A stretch of 64,000 bases of DNA from Symploca sp. SIO3C6. Its GTDB lineage: Bacteria; Cyanobacteriota; Cyanobacteriia; Cyanobacteriales; Coleofasciculaceae. The notes under the pieces were generated by a model. That model saw nothing but the letters and a program-made list of their open reading frames with translations. It was not told where the DNA came from and did no database searches. Below, one piece after another: positions 20,651 through 26,366 of the stretch (position 1 is its first letter; the number at the start of each line of letters is the position of its first letter). The stretch is taken from contig JAAHHJ010000020.1 of assembly GCA_010692425.1 (NCBI GenBank), positions 1-64,000 of the forward strand, in the 5' to 3' direction. Made by a program: the position numbers and the translations under genes.

Positions 20651-23083
20651 ATGGCTCTTGTTACTTGGACTGGATCTGGTGATGGCTTATCCTGGAACGA
20701 TGCAGCAAACTGGGATATTAACGCAGTTCCCAGTGTGTCAGATGAGGTAATTATTAACACCAATGTTAACGTTACCACAGATGTAGATATCACAGTGGTT
20801 TCGTTGAATCTCGCCGCAGGTACACTGACGGGCACGGGAAATACTACCTGGAGTGGCAATTTCACTGTTGAAGAAAATGCTAGCGTAAAGTTTAGTGGTG
20901 AAACGCAAGCTTTCGGCAGCGGTACTAGCTTTCAAGGATTAGGTTTAGTTGAATTGGAAAGCGGTATTTTTAATGTCGATGAAGACCTAACTATTAACAC
21001 CAAGTTTACTAATAAGAGCGAAGTCAAGGTTAAAGCTGGCAAGAAGTTAAATCTAACTGGCGATAGTGAAATAAGTGGTTCTTTTGAGGTTGATGAAAAT
21101 GCCAGCTTAGAGTTAATTGGTCTCACACATACTTTTGCTGCTGGTAGTGACTTCCTGGGCTTAGGTACAGTTGACTTAGTTAGCGGTGAACTCAATATTG
21201 AGGATGAAGTCTCTATTAAGAGTAAGTTCAAAAGTAAAAGTAAAGTCAAAGTCAAAAACAAGTTTAAACTAGAGGGCGATAGTGAAATAAATGGTTCTTT
21301 TGAGGTTGATGAAAATGCCAGCTTAGAGTTAATTGGTCTCACACATACTTTTGCTGCTGGTAGTGACTTCCTGGGCTTAGGTACAGTTGACTTAGTTAGC
21401 GGTGAACTCAATATTGAGGATGAAGTCTCTATTAAGAGTAAGTTCAAAAGTAAAAGTAAAGTCAAAGTCAAAAACAAGTTTAAACTAGAGGGCGATAGTG
21501 AAATAAGTGGTTCTTTTGACCTTGATGATGACGCTACAGTTGAGTTTGCTGAGGGCTCTCATATCCTGGACACAGGAACCATTTTCACGGGTGCAGGTTC
21601 TGTTCGCTTAGTAGGGGGTACTCTCACTGTCAATGAAAACATTAATGTCGAGTTATTAGAGGTAACTGGCGGCACTATTGAGGGGACAGGTACCATTACC
21701 GCCAACAAACAAATTCAAACCATTGCTATCAACCTTGATGAAGGAGAAAGCAAGGTAATCAGTAACCAATTTCTGGTGGTTAGCGCGGGAAATACTTCTG
21801 CCGAACAAATTATCTACACCTTAACTGATTTACCTGATGAAGGTATTCTCTTACTCAATGGTATTGCTTTAGAAATTAATTCTACTTTCACTCAAGCTGA
21901 CATTAACAATGGTTTGCTCACTTATGCTGATGGCGACAGCGATGCCAGTAGCGATAGTTTCAGTTTCAACGCCACAGCTAATGGTGAATTAATCACCAGC
22001 AGCAGTTTTAATTTTACTGTCGAAGAAAACTTGATTGCTGAGTTCCGAAATATAGGCACTACTGGTATTTTCGCCTTTGAGGAAATCAGCTCCTCAGCCA
22101 AACTAAAATTTAGTGTTGATATCAATAGCAGCCCTAGTTTTAACAGTGAAATGGGGGTATTTTTTGTTGATGATGACCTAGGCTCTATCAACGGAATTGC
22201 TCCCGGCGAAGCTGGCTATTTGCAACTTGCTCTGAGTCGGGCGCAAGTAATTAGTTCAGTCCTCTATAACCCTCCCAACGGTTTTGAACAAGGTTCTCGT
22301 TTTTTAGAGTTTGCATCTAGCGATCGCTTAGGATTTTACTTAGTCTCACAGGGTACTACAGACCAAGTACTCAGCCAAGTTGCTGCTGGAGAGACACCTA
22401 ATAATGTAATCTTCTCAACTTCGACCAATCTACAAGTTTCCAACTCTACCAGTACTAGTTTTACTCTCAATTGGGAAGAGCAGCTAGATGGGGGAGATAC
22501 TTCTTTTGACGATGTGGTGATTAACGTTGAGTCGGTAGGCACAAACCCAACACCGGGGACAGAATTTCAAGCAATTGGGCAAAGAGAATTGCTAGATTTG
22601 CGTTCCTTTGAGGGCGAAGTTTCAGCTAGCTTCACAGTGAATCGGGAGGCTGCCTTTAACAATACCATTAGCTTTTATGTAGTTCAAAATGAACAAGGTA
22701 CAATCCTCGATGAATTAACTGGTCAACTAGTTAACCCTGAAGAGCAAGGCTATGCAGAAATCGCTGTCCGACAGAGTATAGAAGTCGAACTCTTTGTAGA
22801 AAACCAAGGTACTGTTAATATAGTTACTCAGCTACAGGGTGGGGAAATCCTCGCACCATTTGTTATTGCCGATGGCAGCATCAGCGATTTTCTCAACACG
22901 AATCCAGAGAATTTAGAGGATGAAGGTTCCAATGCCTACTTTACTTTCATAGGAGCCAACCCAGATCAAGCTGATCACTTTGCTATGCTTGGGGACAATA
23001 CTATTGGCGTTGAAGATTTGTTCGGTGGTGGAGACAACGACTTTAACGATGTGATTTTCAAGGTTGATTTTACAGTTCCCTAG
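20651..23083 (+). CDS. Large repetitive surface/exoprotein with DUF4114-like domains
   Basis: This 810-residue protein has a strong ribosome site (GAGGAG before the ATG) and no N-terminal signal peptide. The order is: a beta-rich start (TWTGSGDGLSWNDAANWD, as in extracellular repeat proteins), tandem beta-strand repeats including two nearly identical 72-residue units (about 138-281), a cadherin/CSPG-like repeat (LTDLPDEGILLLNG, FTQADINNG) near 395-465, then two DUF4114-like segments. The last ends in GGGDNDFNDVIFKVDF, an acidic motif typical of that domain. Lack of a signal peptide suggests type I secretion, like the RTX proteins in this window (inference). Its role may be adhesion or a sheath component. 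Confidence 0.85.
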   Translation: MALVTWTGSGDGLSWNDAANWDINAVPSVSDEVIINTNVNVTTDVDITVVSLNLAAGTLTGTGNTTWSGNFTVEENASVKFSGETQAFGSGTSFQGLGLVELESGIFNVDEDLTINTKFTNKSEVKVKAGKKLNLTGDSEISGSFEVDENASLELIGLTHTFAAGSDFLGLGTVDLVSGELNIEDEVSIKSKFKSKSKVKVKNKFKLEGDSEINGSFEVDENASLELIGLTHTFAAGSDFLGLGTVDLVSGELNIEDEVSIKSKFKSKSKVKVKNKFKLEGDSEISGSFDLDDDATVEFAEGSHILDTGTIFTGAGSVRLVGGTLTVNENINVELLEVTGGTIEGTGTITANKQIQTIAINLDEGESKVISNQFLVVSAGNTSAEQIIYTLTDLPDEGILLLNGIALEINSTFTQADINNGLLTYADGDSDASSDSFSFNATANGELITSSSFNFTVEENLIAEFRNIGTTGIFAFEEISSSAKLKFSVDINSSPSFNSEMGVFFVDDDLGSINGIAPGEAGYLQLALSRAQVISSVLYNPPNGFEQGSRFLEFASSDRLGFYLVSQGTTDQVLSQVAAGETPNNVIFSTSTNLQVSNSTSTSFTLNWEEQLDGGDTSFDDVVINVESVGTNPTPGTEFQAIGQRELLDLRSFEGEVSASFTVNREAAFNNTISFYVVQNEQGTILDELTGQLVNPEEQGYAEIAVRQSIEVELFVENQGTVNIVTQLQGGEILAPFVIADGSISDFLNTNPENLEDEGSNAYFTFIGANPDQADHFAMLGDNTIGVEDLFGGGDNDFNDVIFKVDFTVP
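21062..21493 (+). repeat. Two near-identical 216-bp tandem repeats inside the surface protein
   Basis: Units start at 21062 and 21278 (GATAGTGAAATAA...), and a third partial unit begins at 21494. The two full units (72 codons) are almost identical in DNA, even at silent positions; one visible change turns AGTGGT into AATGGT. This implies recent duplication or ongoing gene conversion. Unit content: GSFEVDENASLELIG, THTFAAGSDFLGLG and a Lys/Ser-rich KSKFKSKSKVKVKN stretch. Confidence 0.95.
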
Positions 23084-23533: not shown

Positions 23534-25327
23534 GTGTTAGATTTTCTCACCTCAATCCTAGGCAATAAAATTCCTTGGCATAAACTACCTACTCCCCTAG
23601 CCCTCCTCGAATTAGTTAAGTTTCGCGACGAACTGCGGGAGAAAAATCTCCACGACACATCACACTTACCTACTAAAAGTGATGTTGAACAACCAGTACC
23701 GAGTCCAGGTGATCTTCATCTAGTTACTCGCACAGCTGACGGCAGTTTTAACGACCTCAGTGACCCCAAAATGGGCAGGGCTCAATCCCGATTTGGGCGT
23801 AATGTCCCCCTGAAATATACTTATCCCGATCAAAGAAATTTACTCAATCCCAATCCGCGTGTAATCAGCCGCACCTTGATGACGCGAGATAAATTTGTAC
23901 CAGCTACCACCTTAAATCTGCTGGCTGCTGCCTGGATTCAATTCCAGACTCATGACTGGTTTGCCCATGGCAAAACTGAACCAGATAACAATTTTGAGAT
24001 TCCCCTAGAAGATGACGATCCCTGGCCACAAGAATATCGACCCTTAAAAGTTAGAAAAACTTTAGCAGATTCGACTAGATCACAAGAAAATACACAAGGA
24101 CCACCGACTTATTTGAACCAAGTAACTCACTGGTGGGATGCCTCACAAATCTATGGCAGTGACCAAGAAACTATTGATAAGTTACGCTCCCATATAGACG
24201 GAAAGATGATTATAGGAGATAATGATCTCTTGCCCGTCAACCCAGAAAATGGTATCGATCTGGTAGGCTTTGATGATAATTGGTGGCTAGGTTTAAGTGT
24301 ACTACATACTTTGTTCGTTAAAGAACACAACGTGATCTGCGATCGCCTTAAACAAGAATACCCGGAATGGCCCGACGACCAACTCTTTGAACACGCCCGA
24401 CTGATTAACGCCGCTTTGCTAGCCAAAATTCATACAGTTGAATGGACACCAGGTATTCTCGGACATCCTGCCCTGCAAATAGCAATGAATGCCAATTGGT
24501 GGGGTTTATTGGGTGAACAGCTAAAAAGACTTTTTGGGCGCATTGACGACAGCGAATTGATCAGTGGTATTATTGGCTCAGCTACGGATCACCACAGTGC
24601 ACCCTACTATCTAACTGAAGAATTTGTATCAGTATATCGAATGCATCCCTTGATGCCAGATAAATTTGAATTTTATGGGATTGAAGATGGTAAATTGCTG
24701 TCCGAGGAAAATCTTTTTGAGGTTTCTGGTAAAAGATCTAGAGCTTTGTTAGAAAAATTGGGAATACCGAATTTATTATACTCCTTTGGCATTACCCACC
24801 CTGGAGCAATAACACTGCACAATTACCCCTTATTACTGCAAAAACTAGTAAGAGACAACGGCGAAGTGTTTGACTTGGCAGCTGTTGATATTCTTCGAGA
24901 CAGGGAACGGGGAGTTCCTCGGTACAATGAATTTCGGGAACTAATTGGTCGTGGCAGAATTACCTCCTTTGAAGAGATTACCGATAATCAGCAATGGGTG
25001 AGGGAATTACGGCAAGTTTACAACAATGACATCAATAGCGTTGATCTTATGGTCGGCATGTTCGCAGAAAACCCTCCTGAAGGCTTTGGTTTCAGTGATA
25101 CTGCCTTTCGTATATTTATCCTGATGGCATCGCGGCGGTTAAAAAGTGACCGTTTCTTTACTAAGGACTACACAGCTGAAGTCTATACCCAATTCGGTTT
25201 AGATTGGATTGACAACAATAGCATGTTAAGTGTCCTACGCCGACACTTTCCGACAGTAGCACCCGCCTTGTTTGGCGTCGAAAATGCTTTTGCTCCCTGG
25301 CGTCGGGTGGGTTCATCTTCTCTATGA
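23534..25327 (+). CDS. Heme peroxidase-family fatty-acid dioxygenase (COX/alpha-DOX relative)
   Basis: I prefer the GTG at 23534, because AAGGAG lies 8 bases upstream; the frame itself opens seven codons earlier. The 597-residue protein has the heme and catalytic signatures of the animal heme peroxidase-dioxygenase branch: distal His in QFQTHDWF (about residue 140) and YRMHPLMPD with the catalytic Tyr (368) and proximal heme His (371). These match plant alpha-dioxygenase (YRMHSLLP) and cyclooxygenase (YHWHPLLPD). Such enzymes oxygenate unsaturated fatty acids, and a cyanobacterial relative in Nostoc has been reported as a linoleate 10S-dioxygenase. Substrate and position here are not known. 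A P450-like gene follows. Confidence 0.9.
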   Translation: MLDFLTSILGNKIPWHKLPTPLALLELVKFRDELREKNLHDTSHLPTKSDVEQPVPSPGDLHLVTRTADGSFNDLSDPKMGRAQSRFGRNVPLKYTYPDQRNLLNPNPRVISRTLMTRDKFVPATTLNLLAAAWIQFQTHDWFAHGKTEPDNNFEIPLEDDDPWPQEYRPLKVRKTLADSTRSQENTQGPPTYLNQVTHWWDASQIYGSDQETIDKLRSHIDGKMIIGDNDLLPVNPENGIDLVGFDDNWWLGLSVLHTLFVKEHNVICDRLKQEYPEWPDDQLFEHARLINAALLAKIHTVEWTPGILGHPALQIAMNANWWGLLGEQLKRLFGRIDDSELISGIIGSATDHHSAPYYLTEEFVSVYRMHPLMPDKFEFYGIEDGKLLSEENLFEVSGKRSRALLEKLGIPNLLYSFGITHPGAITLHNYPLLLQKLVRDNGEVFDLAAVDILRDRERGVPRYNEFRELIGRGRITSFEEITDNQQWVRELRQVYNNDINSVDLMVGMFAENPPEGFGFSDTAFRIFILMASRRLKSDRFFTKDYTAEVYTQFGLDWIDNNSMLSVLRRHFPTVAPALFGVENAFAPWRRVGSSSL

Positions 25328-25360
25328 GATCAACTTCATAGTATCTGAATAACTTACCTG

Positions 25361-25383
25361 TAGGGTGGGCAATGCCTACCCTA
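25361..25383. repeat. Interspersed palindrome TAGGGTGGGC...GCCTACCCTA
   Basis: A 10-bp inverted repeat with one mismatch around a short centre, lying between the dioxygenase and P450-like genes. It resembles the TAGGGTGGGC-type palindromes repeatedly seen in cyanobacteria. An apparent upstream start (GTG at 25365) of the next gene falls inside it and is therefore doubtful. Confidence 0.7.
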
Positions 25384-25466
25384 AGAAACAATGGTTTGTT
25401 GAGAAAAATCCGAGAACTCAAGACTATAGTATTTCAGGCAATCGAGCTTTGATTTCAGGGAAAAAC

Positions 25467-26366
25467 ATGTTAGATTTCATCAAATCTTTTTTTAATCCTG
25501 TTCGGATCACAATCCCATATTTGCTGGATATCATCATTGTTTCCGATCCCAGACAAATTCGGAAAATTGAGACTTCAGGGGATGTTAACCGTTTGCATAC
25601 TTATGATACTGCTTCCTTACCATGGTGGGTGAAAATTTATTTCAGAGCAACCAAGTTTCATGATGATCAGCGCGATTTGTGGTTTTGCCCCTTTGAGCCG
25701 ACATCTAATCCTACCTATCAAAGCAGACGGACTTATCTTGAGGAAAAAGTCGCAATCGGCTATAGCCAAGCAGACGTCAGGAGAATCGCCCAACTGTTGA
25801 ATACAAATGCAGATGATCAGACTCTCGCCCATGAAATGGTGCAAATAGTCAATCGTAGATTCTTTGAAAGCGAGATACCTCTAACTATTACTAAATCAGC
25901 CAAAGATACCTTACAAAATTTTAGTGAAGCAATCTTGCCATGGAACTATCTACGTGCTGTCCAATCTCAGCAGAAGATCATGAATTACTGTCAACGAACT
26001 CTCCCTCAAGGTGTCCATATCCTAGATGCTGGACATAATATTGGAGAAGTTGTGCAGACGACAGCAGGTGCATTAAGAACCTTAAAAGATAACCTGGAAA
26101 AGCCAGTGGCAGAAATCTTTACATCACACCCTCTCACACCACAGGTGCCTAGAATAGCTACAAGGTCTTCTAATTTTGATGGTTTGTTGTCTTATCCTAC
26201 CAGTGCAGGTCAAACGGTAGTGATATTTAAAATAGGAGAAGCTGCTGCCGAAACCCATGATATATCTTTTACTTTCGGCACTGGCAGAGAGGAGAGGGCT
26301 TGCGTTTTTCAAGAGTTTTTCATGAATTTTATGAATGATTTACAGCAGGAATTGAAGGGACAATAA
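25467..26366 (+). CDS. Compact P450-like heme-thiolate protein
   Basis: From the ATG at 25467 the product has 299 residues. I see a P450-like layout in short form: IIIVSDPRQIRKI near the start; VPRIATRSSNFDG (the PR..t...G-like region) about 235-250; AGQTVVIFKIGEAA; and FTFGTGREERACVF near 270-281, resembling the FGxGxRxC heme loop with Cys279 as likely thiolate ligand. The usual I-helix and ExxR region are not evident, so it is shorter than normal P450s (about 400-450 residues). It follows the dioxygenase by 139 bases. Similar two-activity arrangements occur fused in fungal Ppo/linoleate diol synthases. Allene-oxide or diol formation is a guess. Confidence 0.7.
   Translation: MLDFIKSFFNPVRITIPYLLDIIIVSDPRQIRKIETSGDVNRLHTYDTASLPWWVKIYFRATKFHDDQRDLWFCPFEPTSNPTYQSRRTYLEEKVAIGYSQADVRRIAQLLNTNADDQTLAHEMVQIVNRRFFESEIPLTITKSAKDTLQNFSEAILPWNYLRAVQSQQKIMNYCQRTLPQGVHILDAGHNIGEVVQTTAGALRTLKDNLEKPVAEIFTSHPLTPQVPRIATRSSNFDGLLSYPTSAGQTVVIFKIGEAAAETHDISFTFGTGREERACVFQEFFMNFMNDLQQELKGQ

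Follow-up and report, generated by a model that had tools for sequence, protein, structure and literature searches.

In the window, the whole stretch of 64,000 nucleotides of Symploca sp. SIO3C6 that was analyzed (contig JAAHHJ010000020.1), gene 1 and ORF2 form a pair that we take, with a probability of about 0.55, to be a two-step fatty acid oxidation module in which ORF2 is derived from a P450 and processes the 2-hydroperoxide made by the alpha-dioxygenase (alpha-DOX) encoded by gene 1. In the first step, alpha-DOX would use O2 and a tyrosyl radical to convert a free fatty acid to the (R)-2-hydroperoxy acid. In the second, ORF2, whose heme-thiolate ligand is probably C279, would accept the 2-hydroperoxide without a redox partner, and scission of the O-O bond with rearrangement or cleavage would yield a chain-shortened aldehyde, a 2-hydroxy acid, or a 2,x-diol. 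This conversion would replace the spontaneous decarboxylation of the 2-hydroperoxide. The hydroperoxide has been described as losing CO2 spontaneously (PMC9305512), and an enzyme for this step would thus supply what has been missing.

Gene 1 is assigned to the alpha-dioxygenases

Gene 1 (positions 23534 to 25327, plus strand; 597 amino acids) starts with a GTG preceded by AAAGGAG, and its stop codon ends at 25327. The protein matched the Pfam family An_peroxidase at 1.3e-120, and the top three PDB sequences were the plant alpha-DOX entries 4hhr, 4kvj, and 4kvl, with E values of about 1e-122; the alignment with 4hhr and 4kvj was full length (residues 11 to 590). The rice and Arabidopsis alpha-DOX are its best solved relatives, whereas COX among the PDB sequences reached only 1e-17, far below the alpha-DOX score. 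In a residue-by-residue alignment, all of the described heme, tyrosine, and carboxylate site residues, whose roles were taken from the literature (PMC8720084), were present: the distal heme histidine H140 (THDW), the catalytic tyrosine Y368 and the proximal histidine H371 (YRMH), the stacking phenylalanine pair F364/F528, and the substrate site H300/T305/R535 with its carboxylate-binding histidine and arginine and its alpha-carbon threonine. The distal histidine and the YRMH motif had been read correctly in the earlier note, but of its "COX/alpha-dioxygenase relative" only the second half stands, since the PDB matches rule out a COX or a dioxygenase of the fungal linoleate (diol synthase) type. 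By its sequence, gene 1 is a true alpha-DOX of the plant type.

Alpha-DOX enzymes, including three characterized ones from cyanobacteria, make (R)-2-hydroperoxy acids (PMC8720084, PMC9305512). Since gene 1 falls into this class, a 2-hydroperoxy fatty acid is its expected product; the conserved residues, together with the cyanobacterial relatives in the literature, lead us to infer the first-step chemistry given above. The genome of the window also encodes a second heme peroxidase-like protein of 798 amino acids (L025:3004-5400, plus strand), which is distant from alpha-DOX.

ORF2 is a conserved partner of alpha-DOX

ORF2 (25467 to 26366, plus strand; 299 amino acids) lies downstream of gene 1 on the same strand, after an intergenic gap of 139 bp. 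Its ATG at 25467 is the start in nearly all homologues, and its stop codon ends at 26366. Both open reading frames were thus recovered as the earlier note had placed them, adjacent and in one direction. The gap is no proof of cotranscription, and scans for promoters and terminators gave signals no higher than in shuffles. Inspection of the neighborhood of the pair revealed no further gene resembling lipid oxidation. Upstream lies a gene for an 810-amino-acid repeat protein (20651 to 23083, plus strand) in which a segment of about 70 residues (HTFAAGSDFLGLGTVDLVSGELNIEDEVSIKSKF...) is duplicated almost exactly, and downstream, on the opposite strand, is a gene that we take by inspection to be lpxB-like.

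ORF2 had no match in Pfam, NCBIfam, or the PDB sequences, also when profiles or 13 homologues were scanned. A scan of a public genome collection with the single sequence retrieved nothing, and a two-sequence alignment retrieved relatives at four loci. In the order, ORF2 is found in 11 of 391 genomes, and three more genomes belong to other orders of the class; within the collections searched, the relatives were restricted to cyanobacteria, and the plasmids searched gave no match. The 15 intact copies (the window and 14 others) align well, with 48 to 74% identity to the window copy. Weak matches to frames of about 698 amino acids (L008 and similar), by inspection a P-loop, coiled-coil SMC/DndD-like protein, were discarded as spurious, as was a match in L003 to what by inspection is a GGDEF-type protein. 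ORF2 is frameshifted in genome G453 (L074:2332-3238, minus strand), an intact ORF2 stands beside a truncated alpha-DOX (L073:7647-8315, minus strand) in G591, and G797, which has no full-length alpha-DOX match, carries an ORF2 remnant (L155:6842-7235, plus strand).

Of the 15 intact ORF2 genes, 14 directly adjoin alpha-DOX. Alpha-DOX precedes ORF2 in the window and in L071, L072, and L073; ORF2 precedes alpha-DOX in L018, L027, L066 to L070, and L153, as well as in the frameshifted L074; and the two are divergent in L029. In Iningainema tapete (L026), nature has fused them into one frame of 948 amino acids, alpha-DOX first and ORF2 second, with a Ser/Thr/Pro linker joining the domains. The 15th copy (L154:6418-7338, minus strand; 50% identity) is the most divergent intact one and lies elsewhere in a genome, G821, that also has an alpha-DOX; it carries Thr instead of N191 and may differ in function. 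All 11 ORF2 genomes of the order are among its 35 alpha-DOX genomes, and the pair is adjacent in each of the 11; over the 391 genomes, and with kinship ignored, the hypergeometric probability of this co-occurrence is about 6e-13. The intergenic gap and the differing orientations between genomes would be in keeping with chance neighbors that have no functional link, but adjacency of 14 of 15 copies in four arrangements, one of them a fusion, and the co-occurrence statistics refute this explanation for practical purposes. The pairing is real, far beyond chance, and independent of arrangement. Co-occurrence in other cyanobacteria had been proposed as a check in the earlier note, and the pair is conserved there; the parts, however, are separate as described in the window but not in I. 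tapete, where they are fused like a fungal DOX-P450.

Relationship of ORF2 to P450s

The candidate heme-thiolate ligand C279 lies in a Cys loop, F[GS][TA]GxxERxC[VS]F (residues 270 to 281; 26274 to 26309, plus strand), that reads FGTGREERAC in the window. F270, G273, R277, and C279 were invariant in 13 of 13 alignment rows and in both further homologues (15/15), and R277 stands at Cys minus 2, as in P450s. However, the Cys follows the Phe by 9 residues and not by 7, which makes the loop two residues longer than that of a canonical P450, and at C+2 a Phe takes the place of the P450 Gly. The canonical pattern FxxGx[RH]xCxG was found in 0 of 13 ORF2 rows versus 33 of 33 P450 controls. What had been called an "FGxG...C heme loop" therefore has a real and invariant Cys but is not the canonical signature. 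Lengthened Cys loops, as in ORF2, are known from CYP74.

In an hhalign comparison with 33 cyanobacterial P450s, the best segment was a K-helix-like stretch, ...EIFTxxxxTPQxPRIA (residues 210 to 231; 26094 to 26159, plus strand), which fell in register on the K-helix/PxxxR region of the P450s; the score was marginal, being equalled by 7 of 200 column shuffles. At the K-helix position ORF2 has no ExxR and reads E-x-F-T, with Thr219 replacing the Arg. An I-helix-like motif, DxGHNIGExxQ (residues 187 to 197; 26025 to 26057, plus strand), contains N191 in 14 of the 15 copies, L154 being the exception, and a low-confidence model of ORF2 has a helix at residues 188 to 204. Plant AOS (N321) and PGIS (N287) have Asn at the matching place (PMC13049297); a plant AOS segment that served only as a probe was letter-for-letter identical to the PDB chain. 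Since Asn stands where the usual I-helix Thr would be, ORF2 would fit peroxide handling better than O2 activation.

Both AlphaFold (AF2) models of ORF2 were of low confidence, with pLDDT values of 36.5 and 53.3. For one model, the 50 highest VIA rows included 49 P450s, with Z scores of up to 5.2. For the other, which had five rows, P450s took the first four places, and three of these were collinear with ORF2 from residue 5 or 7 to residue 299. A Z score near 5 can mean a shared helical arrangement alone, and Foldseek returned E values of about 0.5, with other helical proteins, such as TetR regulators and GST, at similar values. The structure prediction suggested in the earlier note thus gave P450s as the best neighbors, but at low model confidence and modest Z. 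Its "compact P450-like protein" is indeed small and a conserved partner, whereas the P450 identity rests on a noncanonical Cys loop and low-confidence fold matches. Hence, ORF2 is probably P450-derived but is not a certified P450; heme binding, a P450 fold, and action on the 2-hydroperoxide are what we infer for it.

H184, D187, and H190, three residues apart on one helix, are invariant in 15 of 15 homologues, and ORF2 has no P450 match by sequence; it might therefore represent a new fold that is not P450-derived, perhaps with a non-heme metal site at these residues, and still process the alpha-DOX product. We regard this as rather unlikely, since E194, which would complete the metal site, is lost in L154, R277-x-C279 with the flanking Phe and Gly is equally invariant, and P450s are the best structural neighbors of both models. 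Because ExxR and the canonical Cys loop have been lost, ORF2 could instead be a decayed P450 domain that is noncatalytic and stabilizes, localizes, or feeds alpha-DOX, a role that the CYP-like domain of fungal 10R-DOX-1, which is without the heme-thiolate Cys, may have (PMC13049297). In ORF2, however, the putative ligand Cys and its neighbors are invariant, in contrast to the degenerate fungal domain; moreover, most alpha-DOX genomes lack ORF2, purified alpha-DOX is active alone in vitro (PMC8720084), and an ordinary P450 takes the place of ORF2 at other alpha-DOX loci. A noncatalytic role is, therefore, unlikely. A P450-derived ORF2 acting on the 2-hydroperoxide remains our preferred reading. 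As a more tentative extension of it, ORF2 may be the smallest P450-derived heme-thiolate enzyme, one that has lost ExxR, has a reshaped Cys loop, and serves alpha-DOX as a dedicated 2-hydroperoxy acid isomerase or lyase; the pair would then form a bacterial alpha-DOX/P450-like pathway, and the Iningainema fusion would be independent of the fungal ones.

Comparison with known dioxygenase pairs

Gene 1 is homologous over its full length to the plant and cyanobacterial alpha-DOX enzymes (OsDOX, AtDOX1, CsDOX, CalDOX, and LepDOX) and has all of their described site residues, but for those enzymes the open-access literature searched describes no dedicated downstream partner, whereas gene 1 is paired with ORF2. 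In the same literature we found no alpha-DOX with a partner of its own, no ORF2 family, and no alpha-DOX-ORF2 fusion. Dioxygenases with a hydroperoxide-processing partner are known, however, from the fungal DOX-CYP proteins and from the Nostoc 10S-DOX with its catalase-related lyase (PMC13049297). While this kind of pairing is known, ORF2 represents a new family within it.

The fungal DOX-CYP fusions (linoleate diol synthases, 8/9-AOS, and 10R-EAS) likewise combine a heme dioxygenase of the peroxidase-COX superfamily with a P450-like part that processes the hydroperoxide, and they are fused as in Iningainema, whereas ORF2 is usually, as in the window, encoded by a separate gene. Their dioxygenases are of the 8/9/10-DOX type and not of the alpha-DOX class, and ORF2 differs from their P450 part in having only about 300 residues and neither the canonical Cys loop nor ExxR. 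By analogy, alpha-DOX/ORF2 can be seen as the bacterial counterpart of the fungal pairing. The parallel in architecture, separate and fused, and the Asn of the I-helix-like motif, which is shared with LDS, EAS, AOS, and PGIS, might even suggest that ORF2 is a diol synthase of the fungal linoleate diol synthase kind, forming 2,x-diols by intramolecular oxygen transfer, in line with the fungal comparison in the earlier note. However, this Asn is found in enzymes of differing outcome and is nonessential in LDS and EAS (PMC13049297), and thus does not select diol chemistry. Furthermore, the product expected from an alpha-DOX, a 2-hydroperoxide, differs from 8R-HPODE, so that the fungal diol chemistry is not directly transferable. 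We therefore consider a diol synthase doubtful.

The pair of Nostoc punctiforme resembles that of the window in that a cyanobacterial heme dioxygenase has a separate processing gene, but the 10S-DOX is nearer to COX, and its partner is catalase related and not an ORF2. The plant CYP74 enzymes (AOS and HPL) and PGIS (CYP8A1) handle peroxides without a redox partner, as proposed for ORF2, and have the I-helix Asn in common with it; they are full-size proteins with ExxR and CxG, both of which are absent from ORF2, and sequence comparison revealed no significant similarity.

Partner exchange at alpha-DOX loci

When the neighbors at 39 alpha-DOX loci were clustered, ORF2 was the partner at 14, a protein of about 303 amino acids at 8, and a P450 at 6; 11 loci had none of these, and none of the 39 had two partner classes together. 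The P450 partner is a divergent, full-size protein of 430 amino acids (Pfam, 5e-18; L019:3607-4896, plus strand; relatives in L101, L103, L105, L106, and L109) that lies upstream of alpha-DOX in the same direction in five genomes and on the opposite strand in L109. The 303-amino-acid family, to which no known family could be assigned, follows alpha-DOX at its eight loci (for example, L021:6318-7226 and L023:5102-6010, both minus strand, and L114:7404-8312, plus strand). By eye it resembled a catalase core, but this candidate was dropped, as Pfam, NCBIfam, and the PDB gave no match. A BLASTP comparison of ORF2 with the full-size P450 adjoining alpha-DOX in G360 found nothing, and hhalign of ORF2 against the 303-amino-acid family and the P450 partners gave no signal, while the P450 partner as a control scored 99.4% against other P450s.

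On well-supported branches of the alpha-DOX tree, the ORF2 label must have changed at least three times. The alpha-DOX of the Iningainema fusion is the most divergent (56% identity to that of the window), yet its ORF2 is the closest to the window copy (74%), and of the two alpha-DOX copies in G453, one is paired with the frameshifted ORF2 and the other with the 303-amino-acid protein. The three partner types look interchangeable, which suggests that they act on the alpha-DOX product in related ways.

Fragrance aldehydes are produced with alpha-DOX, whose hydroperoxide is assumed to break down without help. With ORF2, a conserved partner that is fused to the enzyme in one case, it can be tested directly whether there is a second, enzymatic step that leads to new products. 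Should ORF2 prove to be a heme-thiolate enzyme of 300 residues without ExxR, it would also illustrate to what extent P450s can shrink. That three partner classes replace one another at this locus further suggests repeated reinvention or swapping of hydroperoxide processing in cyanobacteria, similar to what is seen in plants and fungi.

At three loci, genes for a GMC oxidoreductase and for a patatin-like phospholipase come after the 303-amino-acid gene, an arrangement that resembles an operon leading from a lipase via the fatty acid to an oxidized product. A flavin oxidoreductase resembling old yellow enzyme is encoded near alpha-DOX at 10 of the 39 loci (L022:10192-11589, minus strand; L104, L107, L117, and others).
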